Assembly (NCBI GenBank): GCA_012841065.1
Contig: DUVI01000031.1
Location: 1 to 41,333 of the forward strand
Direction: 5' to 3'
Length of the DNA stretch: 41,333 bases
Source: Bacillota bacterium
Lineage (GTDB): Bacteria; Bacillota; Sulfobacillia; Fermentithermobacillales; Fermentithermobacillaceae
Within the stretch, counting starts at the first letter, position 1. Every line of letters begins with the position of its first letter. The notes below the pieces were generated by a model, which worked only from the letters and a program-made list of their open reading frames with translations, was not told where the DNA came from and did no database searches. Position numbers and translations under genes: made by a program. Below, piece after piece: positions 10,702 to 16,048 of the stretch.

Positions 10702-11616
10702 TCAGCGTCTGCCCACCCGTCCTTTCGCCAAACGCGAAAACCTCTTGCCAAGCACTTTATCAAGGTGTTCCTGGGTCACAAGGTGCCCAGGTTGTCCAGT
10801 ACGCAAGCTTACCAATTTTACCATCAGCTCGCGGAGTTGGAATTGTTCATCGATTGTGAAGTTCCTCGTGGCAGCCGTGAAATAAGCTTGCCTCACTTTC
10901 CGGTACCATATGGAATCAAGACTCTGCCTGGCCTTTGCAAATATCTCCTTTTGCTTAACGCCTGTCATTACAGACAGGGTGAGGTCAGATGTTTCAGGAT
11001 GCCTCTCAAGGATAGTGATTACGCGGTTGTAATCATCTGATTCCTGCTTAGCTTTGCAATAAGGGCACTTACGCTCCGGTTGATACAGGAATCCGCATGT
11101 GTCGCATTTTTTGAACCCTTTCTTGAGCAAATATTTCTTCCGCTTCTCCATTGTAGCAGCAAATCTTTGGAAGACGGAAGCGAGCAGTGAATCGTCACCG
11201 GTGTTTGCCAGGGAAATTATCCGCTGCTTCTCATCAGGCGTTAAAATCTCTTGAGACATAAATTGCTTATATTCCTTGTCTACCTGGACGTGTGTATCAG
11301 GAACACCAAAGGATTGAGTCGTGCCCCACAAGTGTTCAGAGAAACGTATATCGTTAATGTAATTCCCACCCAAGTAGGCGTTTATCCGCGAGATAATGCT
11401 CTTCCGCATGAGTGTGAGTTCTTGGGCCCATGCTGATGAGTTGGTTGCAACATACAGCACGTCCCCGTCTATCCGCCTGGGCCGTGCGTTCCGAGCAATC
11501 TCGCCTACGATCCTGGCCCACGACCAGAACACCTGGAACCGCTTAGCTCTCGGGAGAAGCCCGATTTTGTCCAGGGATTGCTGCAATACGTTGCCTACAA
11601 GTTCAGGACGCGCCAT
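10702..11616 (-). CDS. DUF721/DciA-like protein with zinc ribbon and C-terminal extension
   Basis: This 304-residue protein starts with a DUF721 domain (about residues 8-95: LGLLPRAKRF-like lead, WARIVGEIARNARP, then DVLYVATNSSAWAQEL), the fold of the DciA replicative helicase loader. A four-cysteine zinc ribbon follows at C171/C174 and C184/C187. The remaining about 115 residues are helical and basic and match nothing I recognise. DciA proteins of other bacteria are often only the first domain, so this is a long form. ATG 11616 has GGAGG 5 nt upstream and lies 9 nt after recF. Its place among dnaN, recF and gyrB suits a replication role; helicase loading is inference, since Firmicutes usually use other loaders. 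Confidence 0.8.
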   Translation of the reverse strand: MARPELVGNVLQQSLDKIGLLPRAKRFQVFWSWARIVGEIARNARPRRIDGDVLYVATNSSAWAQELTLMRKSIISRINAYLGGNYINDIRFSEHLWGTTQSFGVPDTHVQVDKEYKQFMSQEILTPDEKQRIISLANTGDDSLLASVFQRFAATMEKRKKYLLKKGFKKCDTCGFLYQPERKCPYCKAKQESDDYNRVITILERHPETSDLTLSVMTGVKQKEIFAKARQSLDSIWYRKVRQAYFTAATRNFTIDEQFQLRELMVKLVSLRTGQPGHLVTQEHLDKVLGKRFSRLAKGRVGRR

Positions 11617-11625
11617 CTTATCCTC

Positions 11626-12744
11626 CTATCGTGAATTTCCGGTCCCCCAGGGCTGTACAGTGTTGTTCTCAACACAGAACAGGGAAAACCTGGGCCCTGT
11701 GTGCTTAGGCAATTCGATCGAAGTCATAAGCACCTGGTATCCGAAATCACACAACGAAAGCACTTTCGACTTCTTCTCCCCATCCAATTCAGAAAATACA
11801 TCGTCCAGCAAAAGCACAGGCCTGGTCCCGAAACTCTGCTGGAGGCACCGGGCCTCGGCGATTTTCAGCGCCAACATCACACTGCGCTGCTGTCCCTGGG
11901 AACCAAAATACCGGAAACTTTTCCCGTTGAGTGTAATCTCCAGATCATCCCTGTGAGGACCTGCAAGGGTCACGCCCCTTGCAATCTCTTCATGCCTTAT
12001 TTCCCGGAGCTTGGCTTGGAACCGGGACCTGATATCCTCTGGGTCAGGTGCAATATCGCCTACCGTGGATATGTATGTTACAGAGCAATTGCCGTTTGCT
12101 ATGAATTTGTAAGTAGATTGTGTATGTGCAGACAGGTCCTCTACCAGCTCAAGCCGCCTCAACAGCAACCGGGATCCAAGGTTTATTACCAATTCATCCA
12201 GGGTTTCAAGAGTTCTCCTCCATGAAGTGTCGAAGCCGGCCTTCTTGAGAGCATTGTTCCTCCTGGAGATGGTATCGTTGTAGCGCTGGAGCGTCCTGGT
12301 GTAAACCGGATCCTGCCTGGACAAGATCGAATCGATTAGCTTTCTCCTGAGGCTTGAGCTTCCCTTCACTATGTACAAATCGTCAGGTGAGAAATACACA
12401 CAGGGAAACAAAGCCAGAAGCTCTTTCCTGGTCACACGCGTGTCGTTAATTTGGAGCTTCCGCCTGACAGAAGGCGTAACCACTGTATCGATTTTGACAG
12501 TTGTGACGGTATCAGGATCTTCGAGCCTGGCCGCCAGAGAAAAAGCGTTCGTACCCCAACGTGCCAAATCCGACTCTCTTTCCGCCCTGGGTGAGCCGAC
12601 AGAGGAAATGTAAAAACACGCTTCCAGCAGGTTTGTTTTTCCTTGTGCGTTTGGACCCATGAACAATGATGCACCTGGAGGGATCTCAAGCTCCAGGTAA
12701 GGATAGTTGCGAAAATCCCTTAGAAGCACATAAGCAAATCGCAC
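11626..12744 (-). CDS. recF: DNA replication/repair protein RecF
   Basis: This 372-residue SMC-like ATPase acts with RecO and RecR to load RecA at gaps. Walker A is GPNAQGKT at 30-37, the ABC-type signature is GSQGQQRS at about 281-288, and Walker B with the D-loop is PVLLLDDVFSELD at 309-321. The N-terminal LRDFRNYPYLEL motif is typical. GTG 12744 lies 3 nt after the dnaN stop, and its ribosome site is inside the end of dnaN, so the two are likely coupled. The length matches the family. The gene between dnaN and recF seen in Bacillus (S4-domain yaaA/rlbA) is missing here. Confidence 0.96.
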   Translation of the reverse strand: MRFAYVLLRDFRNYPYLELEIPPGASLFMGPNAQGKTNLLEACFYISSVGSPRAERESDLARWGTNAFSLAARLEDPDTVTTVKIDTVVTPSVRRKLQINDTRVTRKELLALFPCVYFSPDDLYIVKGSSSLRRKLIDSILSRQDPVYTRTLQRYNDTISRRNNALKKAGFDTSWRRTLETLDELVINLGSRLLLRRLELVEDLSAHTQSTYKFIANGNCSVTYISTVGDIAPDPEDIRSRFQAKLREIRHEEIARGVTLAGPHRDDLEITLNGKSFRYFGSQGQQRSVMLALKIAEARCLQQSFGTRPVLLLDDVFSELDGEKKSKVLSLCDFGYQVLMTSIELPKHTGPRFSLFCVENNTVQPWGTGNSR

Positions 12745-12747
12745 GTA

Positions 12748-13890
12748 TTAGAATGCTCCCTTTGGGCTCATGGGCATGATCACGAATGTGGATTTCACAG
12801 CACCCTCAAGTGGATCATCTTGAACAGGCTCAATAATCATCTGGCTCACCTGGCCTGTCATCCCGAACCGTGTCTCTTCTGTATCTATCTTGCTAAGTGC
12901 CTGAAGCACATAACGGTGCTGCACCCAGATCTCAATATCTTCGCCTTCCACGCGCGCGGGCAGTGCCTCTTCCATCTTACCCTTTTCTGCCGAACCTGCC
13001 CTTATGGTGAGAGTTTGGCTCTTGCTGTCAAGTATGAGCCTCATGGCTCTGTCTTCTTCACTGGCCACAATCGAAGCCCTTGAAGCTGCCCCGGCCATGG
13101 CTTCCGTGGATACGGTTGCCGTGCAAGAGAATGTCTTCGGAATAACCTGTTCGTAAGCATAATATTGCCCTTCGATGAGACGGGTAAAGCAGGATACGTT
13201 ATTGGACGTGAAGTAAAGGTAACCGTCGCATAGCTCCAGGCCCACCTGTTCCTCTTCCTCATCAGTATCTTTGAGGTTCAGGCGTGCCAGATCTTGCAGT
13301 ACATTGGCAGGCACAATTGCCCTGGCTTCTGCTGTGTGCATCCCGGCTGCGGACTTGGAAAGGGCAAATTGGTCTGTGCTTACCATGATCAGTTGATCAC
13401 CGAGCATATCAATCAAGCATGCTCCCCACAGGGGCCTGGCAGGGTTTGATACTGCACAGGTTGCGCCTATCTTGATCAATTCGCGGAAGGTCCGGGCCGT
13501 CAAAGAGATTTCGTGGCCGCCTGCAGGCTCGGGCCACTTGGGAAAATCATCCGCAGGCACGGCGTTGAGCACCATTTCAAGATTGCCCGATTTCACTATG
13601 AGGGCCCATGCCGATTCATCGAGAGAAAGGGTAACATCACCTGGAGGCAACGTCCTGACTATATCCGACAGGATCTTAGCAGACACAACCAGCGAGCCTG
13701 AAGCAGAGACCCTCGCAGGCAAAGATGCCTTTACGCCCCAATCCAGGTTGGTACCTGAAAAGATCACCCTATCCGAAAGTGCTTCTATGAGACAACCCTG
13801 AATAGCCGGCAAAGTGCTTCGTGCAGGGATGGGGCGCGAAGCAGTGTGTACTAACCAAGCAAGGTCGTGTGTTGGTATTGACAGGTACAT
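12748..13890 (-). CDS. dnaN: DNA polymerase III sliding clamp (beta subunit)
   Basis: This 380-residue protein forms the dimeric ring that tethers the replicative polymerase to DNA and recruits repair factors. Three clamp repeats of about 120 residues are present; recognisable parts include ASRPIPARSTLPAIQG near residue 15 and the PMSPKGAF-like C-terminus (canonical PMR-type end). ATG 13890 (MYLSIPTHDL) is chosen because GGGAGG lies 8 nt upstream; the frame stays open for 84 more codons upstream, but that part overlaps the DnaA-box region and has no clamp similarity. It is the second gene after dnaA, separated by 277 nt holding the inner origin element. Confidence 0.95.
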   Translation of the reverse strand: MYLSIPTHDLAWLVHTASRPIPARSTLPAIQGCLIEALSDRVIFSGTNLDWGVKASLPARVSASGSLVVSAKILSDIVRTLPPGDVTLSLDESAWALIVKSGNLEMVLNAVPADDFPKWPEPAGGHEISLTARTFRELIKIGATCAVSNPARPLWGACLIDMLGDQLIMVSTDQFALSKSAAGMHTAEARAIVPANVLQDLARLNLKDTDEEEEQVGLELCDGYLYFTSNNVSCFTRLIEGQYYAYEQVIPKTFSCTATVSTEAMAGAASRASIVASEEDRAMRLILDSKSQTLTIRAGSAEKGKMEEALPARVEGEDIEIWVQHRYVLQALSKIDTEETRFGMTGQVSQMIIEPVQDDPLEGAVKSTFVIMPMSPKGAF

Positions 13891-13930
13891 ATCATACGCC
13901 TCCCTGTGTTGATCTGTGAGAACACGTCCA

Positions 13931-14159
13931 TTCCTTAAGTATATCGGTTGTGTATATTCTAAAACCAGTAGTAGTAGTAGATTGTGTGAATTTGTGCAAA
14001 ACACCTTCCTTGTCCAGAAAAACAGCCGTATTTCCGTGTGGAAACTGCTGTGGAGAAAAAGTGGATGACTGTGCATAACTTGTGCAGATGGCTGGGGCGC
14101 CATAGTTATCCACATTTCCTCAACAGGCAATCCAGATTTCATCCACAGAATTCTTCACA
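13931..14159. other. Origin element between dnaA and dnaN: DnaA boxes, DnaA-trio-like repeat, AT-rich stretch
   Basis: The 277-nt dnaA-dnaN gap holds one perfect DnaA box (TTATCCACA, 14106-14114) and near matches with one mismatch at 14049-14057, 14070-14078 and 14139-14147. Weaker seven-of-nine matches lie at 13993-14001, 14037-14045 and 14151-14159. To their left on the plus strand are four consecutive TAG triplets (13969-13980), which is the DnaA-trio form (3'-GAT-5' read on that strand), and then an AT-rich run (13931-13964). Boxes, trios and AT-rich DNA in this order match the Bacillus unwinding element. DNA opening would be expected at about 13930-13980. Confidence 0.75.
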
Positions 14160-14167
14160 GCAGCAAT

Positions 14168-15547
14168 CTACACCTTCCTAATGCGCTCAATCAGTTGTTC
14201 GATGGTGTTATCCAGATCGGGGTTGGCCTTCCTTTCCTCTTCGATCTTCGAGCATGCGTGAAGCACGGTGGTATGATCCCTGCCGCCAAAACTTTGGCCT
14301 ATCTGGGGCAAAGAAAGCTCGGTCAAGCTGCGGCACAAGTACATTGCCACCTGCCTTGGAAACGCGATGTTACGGGTGCGCCGCTTAGCCAGCAACGCGT
14401 TGACCGGAACGTTGTAATAATCGGCAACCGCTTTCTGGATCGATTCAGTGGTGATGGGAACCACCTTCTTTTCCGGGAGCAGGTCTTTGAGTACCTCTTG
14501 AGTAACGTCAAGGGTGACATCGCATTTGTGGAGTGCGGTGTAGGCAAGCACTCTGATTAGGGCGCCCTCAAGTTCCCGGATGTTACTGGGAATCCTCTCG
14601 GCGATATATTGACACACCGACAGAGGAACCACCCTCCCCTCAAGTTCAGCTTTCTTCCGCAAAATCGCAATGCGTGTTTCTATATCGGGTGGCTGGATAT
14701 CGGCTATGAGCCCCCATTCAAACCTTGTCCTGAGTCTGTCCTCAAGGGTGGAAATCTCTTTCGGAGGCCTGTCCGATGAAATCACAATTTGTTTAGAGGC
14801 CTGGTGCAGCGCGTCAAAAGTGTGGAAGAACTCTTCCTGTGTAGCGTCTTTGCCCGCAACGAATTGGATGTCGTCCACAAGCAATACATCTGCGCTCCGG
14901 TACCTGTTCCTGAATTCCTGGGTATTGCCGTCCTGGATAGCCAGGATCAGCTCGTTGGTAAATGTTTCAGAAGACACATACGATACCTTGAGCCGTTGGT
15001 GGTTGGCGAACACATGATGGGCGATAGCTTGCATCAAATGAGTTTTCCCCAAGCCTACGCCTCCGTACAGAAAGAGCGGGTTGTAGGCTTTGGACGGGCT
15101 TTCGGCGACTGCCAGGGAAGCTGCATGTGCGAACCTGTTAGAAGCTCCCACGATAAAATTGTCAAACACATACCTTGGGTTCAAACTCCGGAGTTGCTGG
15201 TACCTATCGTTGGAGGACGGGCGCTTTTTCTTAGGTGCTACCGCCTGGCCGTCGTGGGGAAACAAAGCAGGTGCCTCAGGTATTGGTTTTTCAGGCTTAG
15301 TGACTGAGAATACCAGGTCACACCGGCCGCCGTATGCTTCTTTCCATGCCGAGGCCAGCTGTTCTTTGTACTTTGTTTCAATCCACGTCTTGGCAAATTC
15401 GCTGGGCACTGCAATAGTGAGGACTTCATCTTCGAGACTCACCGGCTTTGTGTCTTTGAGCCAGTTTCGTATGATTCCAGGGTTTGAGAATCTCATAGAT
15501 GCCCTTGACAGCGCATCATTCCAGAGGGTTTCAAGGTTTCTCCGCAT
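14168..15547 (-). CDS. dnaA: Chromosomal replication initiator DnaA
   Basis: This 459-residue AAA+ protein binds DnaA boxes and opens the origin. Domain I is at 1-80 (LETLWNDAL lead), followed by a variable linker. The ATPase has Walker A GGVGLGKT at 162-169 and Walker B VLLVDDIQF at 221-229. Domain IV carries the DnaA signature GGRDHTTVLHA at 421-431 for box recognition. ATG 15547 gives the family's usual opening; an in-frame GTG five codons upstream is possible and the ribosome site (GGTGG) is weak. It is flanked by box clusters on both sides, so its own expression is probably DnaA-regulated, as known for other Firmicutes. Confidence 0.97.
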   Translation of the reverse strand: MRRNLETLWNDALSRASMRFSNPGIIRNWLKDTKPVSLEDEVLTIAVPSEFAKTWIETKYKEQLASAWKEAYGGRCDLVFSVTKPEKPIPEAPALFPHDGQAVAPKKKRPSSNDRYQQLRSLNPRYVFDNFIVGASNRFAHAASLAVAESPSKAYNPLFLYGGVGLGKTHLMQAIAHHVFANHQRLKVSYVSSETFTNELILAIQDGNTQEFRNRYRSADVLLVDDIQFVAGKDATQEEFFHTFDALHQASKQIVISSDRPPKEISTLEDRLRTRFEWGLIADIQPPDIETRIAILRKKAELEGRVVPLSVCQYIAERIPSNIRELEGALIRVLAYTALHKCDVTLDVTQEVLKDLLPEKKVVPITTESIQKAVADYYNVPVNALLAKRRTRNIAFPRQVAMYLCRSLTELSLPQIGQSFGGRDHTTVLHACSKIEEERKANPDLDNTIEQLIERIRKV

Positions 15548-15764
15548 AATGAAGACCACCATTCGTAAAGATTATGAAACATCTACACAACCCGGAGCTA
15601 CGCTTCATCTTGGAACACCTTGCCCGGCGGGGACAAATATACCTGCTTTGCCTTATACAGCTGTGAATTGGTTCCGCCCTAGCAAGATGGTGTTTCCTGT
15701 TGGTGAACGACCCGAGAACAGAGAAAAGCCTATGCTTATAACGTGCGTATAACAAGTTCACAGG

Positions 15765-15796
15765 TTATCCACATAGTTATCCACAGGTGTGGATAA
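15765..15796. other. oriC DnaA-box cluster upstream of dnaA
   Basis: Three perfect DnaA boxes lie within 32 bp: TTATCCACA at 15765-15773 and 15777-15785, and the reverse form TGTGGATAA at 15788-15796. A weaker TGCGTATAA occurs just left. They sit in the 501-nt gap between dnaA (minus) and rpmH (plus), the standard outer origin position. The rest of this gap holds the rpmH promoter at 15951 and no open reading frame I would call. No repeat array or iteron family beyond the boxes is visible. Confidence 0.9.
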
Positions 15797-15950: not shown

Positions 15951-15980
15951 TTGACACTTTCACCCATGCTAAGATATAAT
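15951..15980 (+). promoter_or_regulatory. Consensus sigma-A promoter for rpmH
   Basis: TTGACA (15951-15956) and TATAAT (15975-15980) both match the consensus exactly, with an 18-nt spacer. Transcription would start near 15987, about 60 nt before the rpmH ATG. This is the strongest promoter in the window and suits a ribosomal protein gene next to the origin. Confidence 0.9.
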
Positions 15981-16048
15981 TCGTTGAATTCATTGGATTC
16001 ATTCACAGGATATTAGTTCCAATGATGTCCGTAGGGGGAACAACCAAG

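Follow-up and report, generated by a model that had tools for sequence, protein, structure and literature searches.

The module built around the TAG repeat in the dnaA-dnaN gap of the 41,333-nucleotide stretch of DNA analyzed here (the window) is, on sequence grounds, very probably the basal unwinding system (BUS) of a chromosome origin. By analogy with Bacillus subtilis, this repeat is almost certainly where DnaA would open the chromosome to start copying. It is an ordinary, textbook-like instance of the Bacillus opening module, and Pelliciari et al. (2021, PMC8287927) predicted BUS modules in about 85% of bacterial origins. Here, the Bacillus-type opening module is placed in a little-studied, uncultured Bacillota class with an apparently different helicase loader, a combination suggesting that the opening and loading parts can be swapped independently of one another.

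Anatomy of the origin

The window's DnaA shares 73% identity with the DnaA of a Candidatus Fermentithermobacillaceae MAG, which points to the DnaA-based origin of a Bacillota lineage; the lineage relatives found are of the MAG type only. The genes and origin elements are as follows, with positions counted along the window.

10702-11616, minus strand: dciA, replicative helicase operator, with the DciA domain at 11341-11598 (PF05258, E 2.3e-19)
11626-12744, minus strand: open reading frame in the recF position, a label given by gene order only
12748-13890, minus strand: dnaN, taking the ATG at 13890-13888, preceded by a GGGAGGC ribosome-binding site, as its start
13949-13957, minus strand: family-specific distal box-like element ATATACACA, two mismatches, 8 nt past trio 5
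13953-13992, no strand: 40-mer of lowest stability in a nearest-neighbour profile of 12.7-16.3 kb
13966-13980, plus strand: five in-register DnaA-trios (four TAG on the plus strand; four CTA and one CTG on the minus strand), with the register kept in family and order relatives
13981-13984, minus strand: 4-nt linker CAAT from the weak box to the first trio, of equal length in relatives
13985-13993, minus strand: weak second DnaA-box AAATTCACA, three mismatches, sharing one base with the anchor box; corresponds to B. subtilis box #7
13993-14001, minus strand: anchor DnaA-box TTTTGCACA, two mismatches (7/9); counterpart of B. subtilis box #6
14049-14057, minus strand: DnaA-box TTCTCCACA, one mismatch
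14070-14078, minus strand: DnaA-box TTATGCACA, one mismatch
14106-14114, plus strand: perfect DnaA-box TTATCCACA
14139-14147, plus strand: DnaA-box TCATCCACA, one mismatch
14168-15562, minus strand: dnaA
15765-15796: upstream triad of perfect boxes between rpmH and dnaA (15765-15773, 15777-15785 and 15788-15796; two on the plus strand, one on the minus), the second half of a bipartite origin
16049, plus strand: start of rpmH

The four TAG triplets in a row that drew attention to this gap, TAGTAGTAGTAG at 13969-13980 on the plus strand, have no second exact copy in the window or anywhere else in the 1.52-Mb draft assembly. In shuffled windows, the same string is expected 0.06 times per window even with one mismatch allowed. 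A strict grammar of four CTA triplets at a distance of 10-13 nt to a box that has two mismatches or fewer finds one match in the window and none in 60 simulated windows. Read on the dnaA-sense strand from 14001 to 13949, the module is TTTTGCACA-AATTCACACAAT-CTA CTA CTA CTA CTG-GTTTTAGA-ATATACACA, so that the bound strand carries 3'-GAT GAT GAT GAT GAC-5' in the direction leading away from the boxes. The register extends to at least five trios, the fifth being the CTG at 13966-13968, and two more NAN triplets follow it in register; on the bound strand, A is in the middle of every trio of the window. The AT-rich run beside the trios is present as well, with 68% AT at 13931-13968 vs 57% across the whole gap, and the least stable DNA at 13953-13992 is probably the site of first melting.

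The box cluster holds one perfect box and three boxes with one mismatch, as originally described. The original prediction also took the box nearest to the trios to be weak, matching 7 of 9 positions, and considered the start of assembly unclear. The first part stands, and the second is largely resolved, with assembly predicted to begin from box 1 at 13993-14001, passing the weak box 2 at 13985-13993 and reaching the first trio at 13978-13980. Since a 12-nt spacer holding a weak second box is the standard layout, the weak box is no puzzle.

The proposal of a bipartite origin also holds up, in that box clusters flank dnaA on both sides, the three perfect boxes of the rpmH side are found where they were reported, and the layout matches that of B. 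subtilis. Left of 13 kb the GC skew is about -0.1, rising to about +0.15 on the right beyond 16 kb, and its cumulative minimum falls at 12-15 kb; the sign switch suggested as a check for 13.9 to 16 kb thus appears as a change between 13 and 16 kb. The relative spacing of the rpmH-side boxes is conserved in 17/17 family and order genomes, in some of which only two of the three boxes are retained within one mismatch. A trio adjoining the rpmH-side boxes was looked for and none was found.

Conservation among relatives

The dnaA-dnaN gap was aligned for 17 genomes, consisting of the window's own, four of the same genus, nine from the family's other genera, and three from a sister family. The box, a spacer of 12 or 13 nt and the trio block are retained in register in all 17 genomes while much of the remaining gap has diverged. 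Relatives thus keep the triplets and boxes, the opposite of the outcome that the original prediction named as its refutation. Scoring triplets 1-5 of 16 origins gave, in the dnaA sense, a middle T in 71/80 and a middle G in 9/80, with the first and third bases varying more than the middle one. An alternating constraint, with triplets 1, 3 and 5 stricter than 2 and 4, was suspected in the family alignment and failed across a wider set of 137 origins.

One point against the BUS reading is the weakness of the anchor box, which matches 7/9 positions in the window and across its genus. Sister genera carry TTATCAACA, with one mismatch, at the equivalent position. The weak box of the window has therefore probably degenerated locally from a recognised site. 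Among the aligned relatives, the weak second box also occurs in a better form as ATATCCACA, with one mismatch, in G012. Loci from Bacilli and Clostridia likewise show the layout of a box, 12 nt and CTA.

Comparison with the Bacillus subtilis unwinding system

The published search rules for a BUS comprise a box with at most two mismatches, three or more NAN trios, a spacer not exceeding 16 nt and an optional second box with at most four mismatches; spacer lengths peak at 10-13 nt, and GAT is preferred beside the box (PMC8287927). The window has all of these features: TTTTGCACA stands 12 nt from the trios, more than three consecutive 3'-NAN-5' trios begin with GAT, AAATTCACA serves as the weaker, co-oriented second box with three mismatches, and the trios lie on the plus strand with the boxes to their right reading on the minus strand. 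Unlike the modules recognized by the (.A.){3,} rule of that study, those of the relatives often contain 3'-NCN-5' trios, which go uncounted.

In order, strand, direction and spacing, the window matches the B. subtilis BUS, as the original prediction had it for order and orientation. Shared with the incC module of B. subtilis (boxes #6 and #7 plus trios) are the location between dnaA and dnaN, the co-oriented strong and weak boxes in the same order, the short linker, the 3'-GAT-5' trios on the equivalent strand relative to the boxes, and the AT-rich DNA beyond; the bipartite origin and the DnaA pocket are shared as well. The window differs in that its anchor box matches 7/9 positions whereas that of B. 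subtilis is perfect, in having an extra box-like element just past the trios, and in belonging to a genome with DciA and no detected DnaD/DnaB homologue.

The trio-capturing residues of DnaA have been identified by cryo-EM of the B. subtilis BUS (PMC10721633). E183, N187, I190, I193, R202, K222, E228 and R264 (B. subtilis numbering) are identical in the window's DnaA, so that the trio-pocket residues that are lethal when mutated, together with the arginine finger, are retained. Counting against the reading are two differences from B. subtilis DnaA, N196 to G and E223 to D, although both positions vary in other origins. Since the pocket is conserved, the mechanism read over from B. subtilis has a protein counterpart here. 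By that analogy, ATP-DnaA would bind the box at 13993-14001 and the overlapping weak box, while the flanking boxes, together with the triad on the rpmH side, would raise the local DnaA. Protomers could then join the plus strand singly, 3' to 5', at one protomer per trio, each neighbouring pair taking hold of the G and the A in a 3'-GAT-5' trio. The plus strand would be drawn off its partner, 13953-13992 would melt, and the opened DNA would let the helicase load, probably with DciA rather than with DnaD/DnaB/DnaI.

Helicase loading

The feature that would mark DnaD-type helicase recruitment is a PF07261 (DnaD/DnaB) protein encoded in the genome. No PF07261 match was found in the window's genome (81% complete) or in the listed genomes of the family and sister family, most of which are at least 90% complete, and the B. 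subtilis and L. lactis controls were positive. DciA (PF05258) was found in 20 of the 21 genomes searched. In other phyla the dciA gene has been described as lying between recF and gyrB (PMC5109545), and the window's gene is in that place. From the gene content, the helicase is probably loaded via DciA instead of DnaD/DnaB/DnaI. The DciA of the window is long at 304 amino acids, with the DciA domain in the N-terminal ~90 residues followed by an extension of ~200 amino acids, and most relatives show an open frame of similar length.

Alternative explanations

The repeat could be a microsatellite that arose in AT-rich spacer DNA by chance or by slippage; slippage makes perfect four-copy trinucleotide repeats, and not all copies are perfect in relatives. 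Such an origin is nonetheless highly improbable and is contradicted by the conserved register: relatives hold a 3-base register 12-13 nt from the box while the first and third bases change, and all 80 triplets have T or G in the middle. The expected frequency of the repeat is also near zero, and its copy is unique in the assembly. A coding role can be imagined too, with the repeat as leucine codons of an N-terminal DnaN extension, given that the mechanical ORF at 12748-14142 is open and that the CTA, CTG, CTC and TTA variants are synonymous Leu codons. This reading is extremely improbable and is refuted by stop codons in relatives. An in-frame TAG lies between the repeat and dnaN in G001, G002 and G004, the frame is also closed in G005, G007, G010, G011 and G012, and in G012 the repeat falls in another frame; moreover, CGG and CGA variants do not encode Leu, and a ribosome-binding site stands before the ATG at 13890.

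Opening could instead occur on the rpmH side (15.7-16.0 kb), leaving the dnaA-dnaN gap as a mere DnaA titration site. Three perfect boxes and a moderately unstable stretch at 15969-16008 favor that side, which is still a very unlikely one for opening, as its boxes have no adjoining trio, DNA stability is lowest at the trios, and every family and order relative examined keeps the trio module. Finally, it may be the complementary strand that is conserved, as a TnnT element recognized by DnaD and not for DnaA. In B. subtilis, DnaD reads a TnnT repeat on exactly the strand opposite the trios (PMC10201434), and the window has the same periodicity there. Here, however, the middle T becomes G in several relatives, breaking TnnT, and DciA is present instead of a PF07261 protein, which was looked for and not found in the family and sister family; DnaD was therefore rejected as the reader of that strand. 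There is thus hardly any probability left for a DnaD element, and the TnnT repeat is probably a mere shadow of trios read by DnaA as part of the BUS.

The middle base of natural trios

In a wider comparison of trios, origins were anchored solely by their boxes and an initial [C/T]TA triplet, and shuffled gaps set the score threshold. A first set comprised 137 origins in 91 groups, taken from the class and named genomes. In its triplets 2-5, the bound strand has a middle A in 400 cases, C in 117, T in 14 and G in 13. C accounts for 117 of the 144 departures from A vs 29.5% expected by base composition (binomial p ~1e-37, or ~4e-24 with one genome per family, triplets being treated as independent). 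The number of C-middle trios increases with GC content (rho 0.38). In GC-rich genomes, G is found in the middle 12 times vs 61 for C even though both changes raise GC equally, and in AT-rich genomes C is still ahead, 20 vs 4 for the other two bases; composition alone is therefore not enough to account for the excess of C. A second set of 60 origins, fetched later from other classes of the phylum and treated with the rule and threshold unchanged, gave A 201, C 23, T 9 and G 7 (p 1.8e-6).

In B. subtilis, the central A can be replaced by C and not by G or T (PMC10721633), and the authors of that work raised natural C-middle trios as a possibility. The natural use of C is the counterpart of their mutant finding, as the mutants predicted. 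In the literature, trios are described as NAN (PMC8287927) or 5'-YTD-3'; a search that had most subscription papers and supplements outside its reach found no report of a natural A/C split, leaving priority uncertain. For origin-finding programs, the concrete correction is NMN instead of NAN, and the natural variants of the opening module show the bases that DnaA can accept there. C-middle trios were also checked for covariation with residues of the DnaA pocket; N187, which contacts the amine, shows none and is identical in 137/137. In the dnaA sense, C-middle trios appear as CGA, CGG or TGA and are widespread in Bacillota (L007, L014, L074, L096, L104, L171, L172 and others); the origins of G006 and G008 are natural C-middle cases.

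A distal box-like element

In all 14 family genomes, a 9-mer of the same orientation with at most two mismatches to the DnaA-box lies shortly past trio 5, vs 6% in shuffles, a count inflated by shared descent, as 14 related genomes are not 14 events. It reads ATATACACA or ATATGCACA in 12 of them, TAATTCACA in G006 and TAATCCACA, displaced by one base, in G008. Its columns are 79-100% conserved vs ~50% for those directly after. Elsewhere in the class its frequency is 1.5%, and among named Bacillota 9%, vs 4-6% in shuffles, so the element was rejected as a general Bacillota feature. At the family loci (L003-L015), the box-like ATATACACA stands at a nearly constant distance past the trios, an arrangement seen only in Fermentithermobacillaceae.

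As a guess, the distal box may act as a stop or a second anchor for the DnaA filament. A joint reading in which the known system is extended in two ways, the second being a box-trio-box variant of Fermentithermobacillaceae, is tentative and falls somewhat short of an even chance. Within it, a co-oriented box 8 nt past the trios would bound or re-anchor the DnaA filament at a DnaD-less origin of the DciA type.

Gene starts

The true start of dnaN is probably the ATG at 13890. The mechanical ORF is an open-frame artefact in which dnaN is stretched by 84 codons across the origin, and gene callers may over-extend dnaN through the origin by that amount. A conserved ATAGATAAGGAA-like stretch separates the distal box from the ribosome-binding site of dnaN in the window (13931-13948) and its relatives. 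In the window it reads ATACTTAAGGAA, with a stop codon gone, which makes the dnaN frame look longer.
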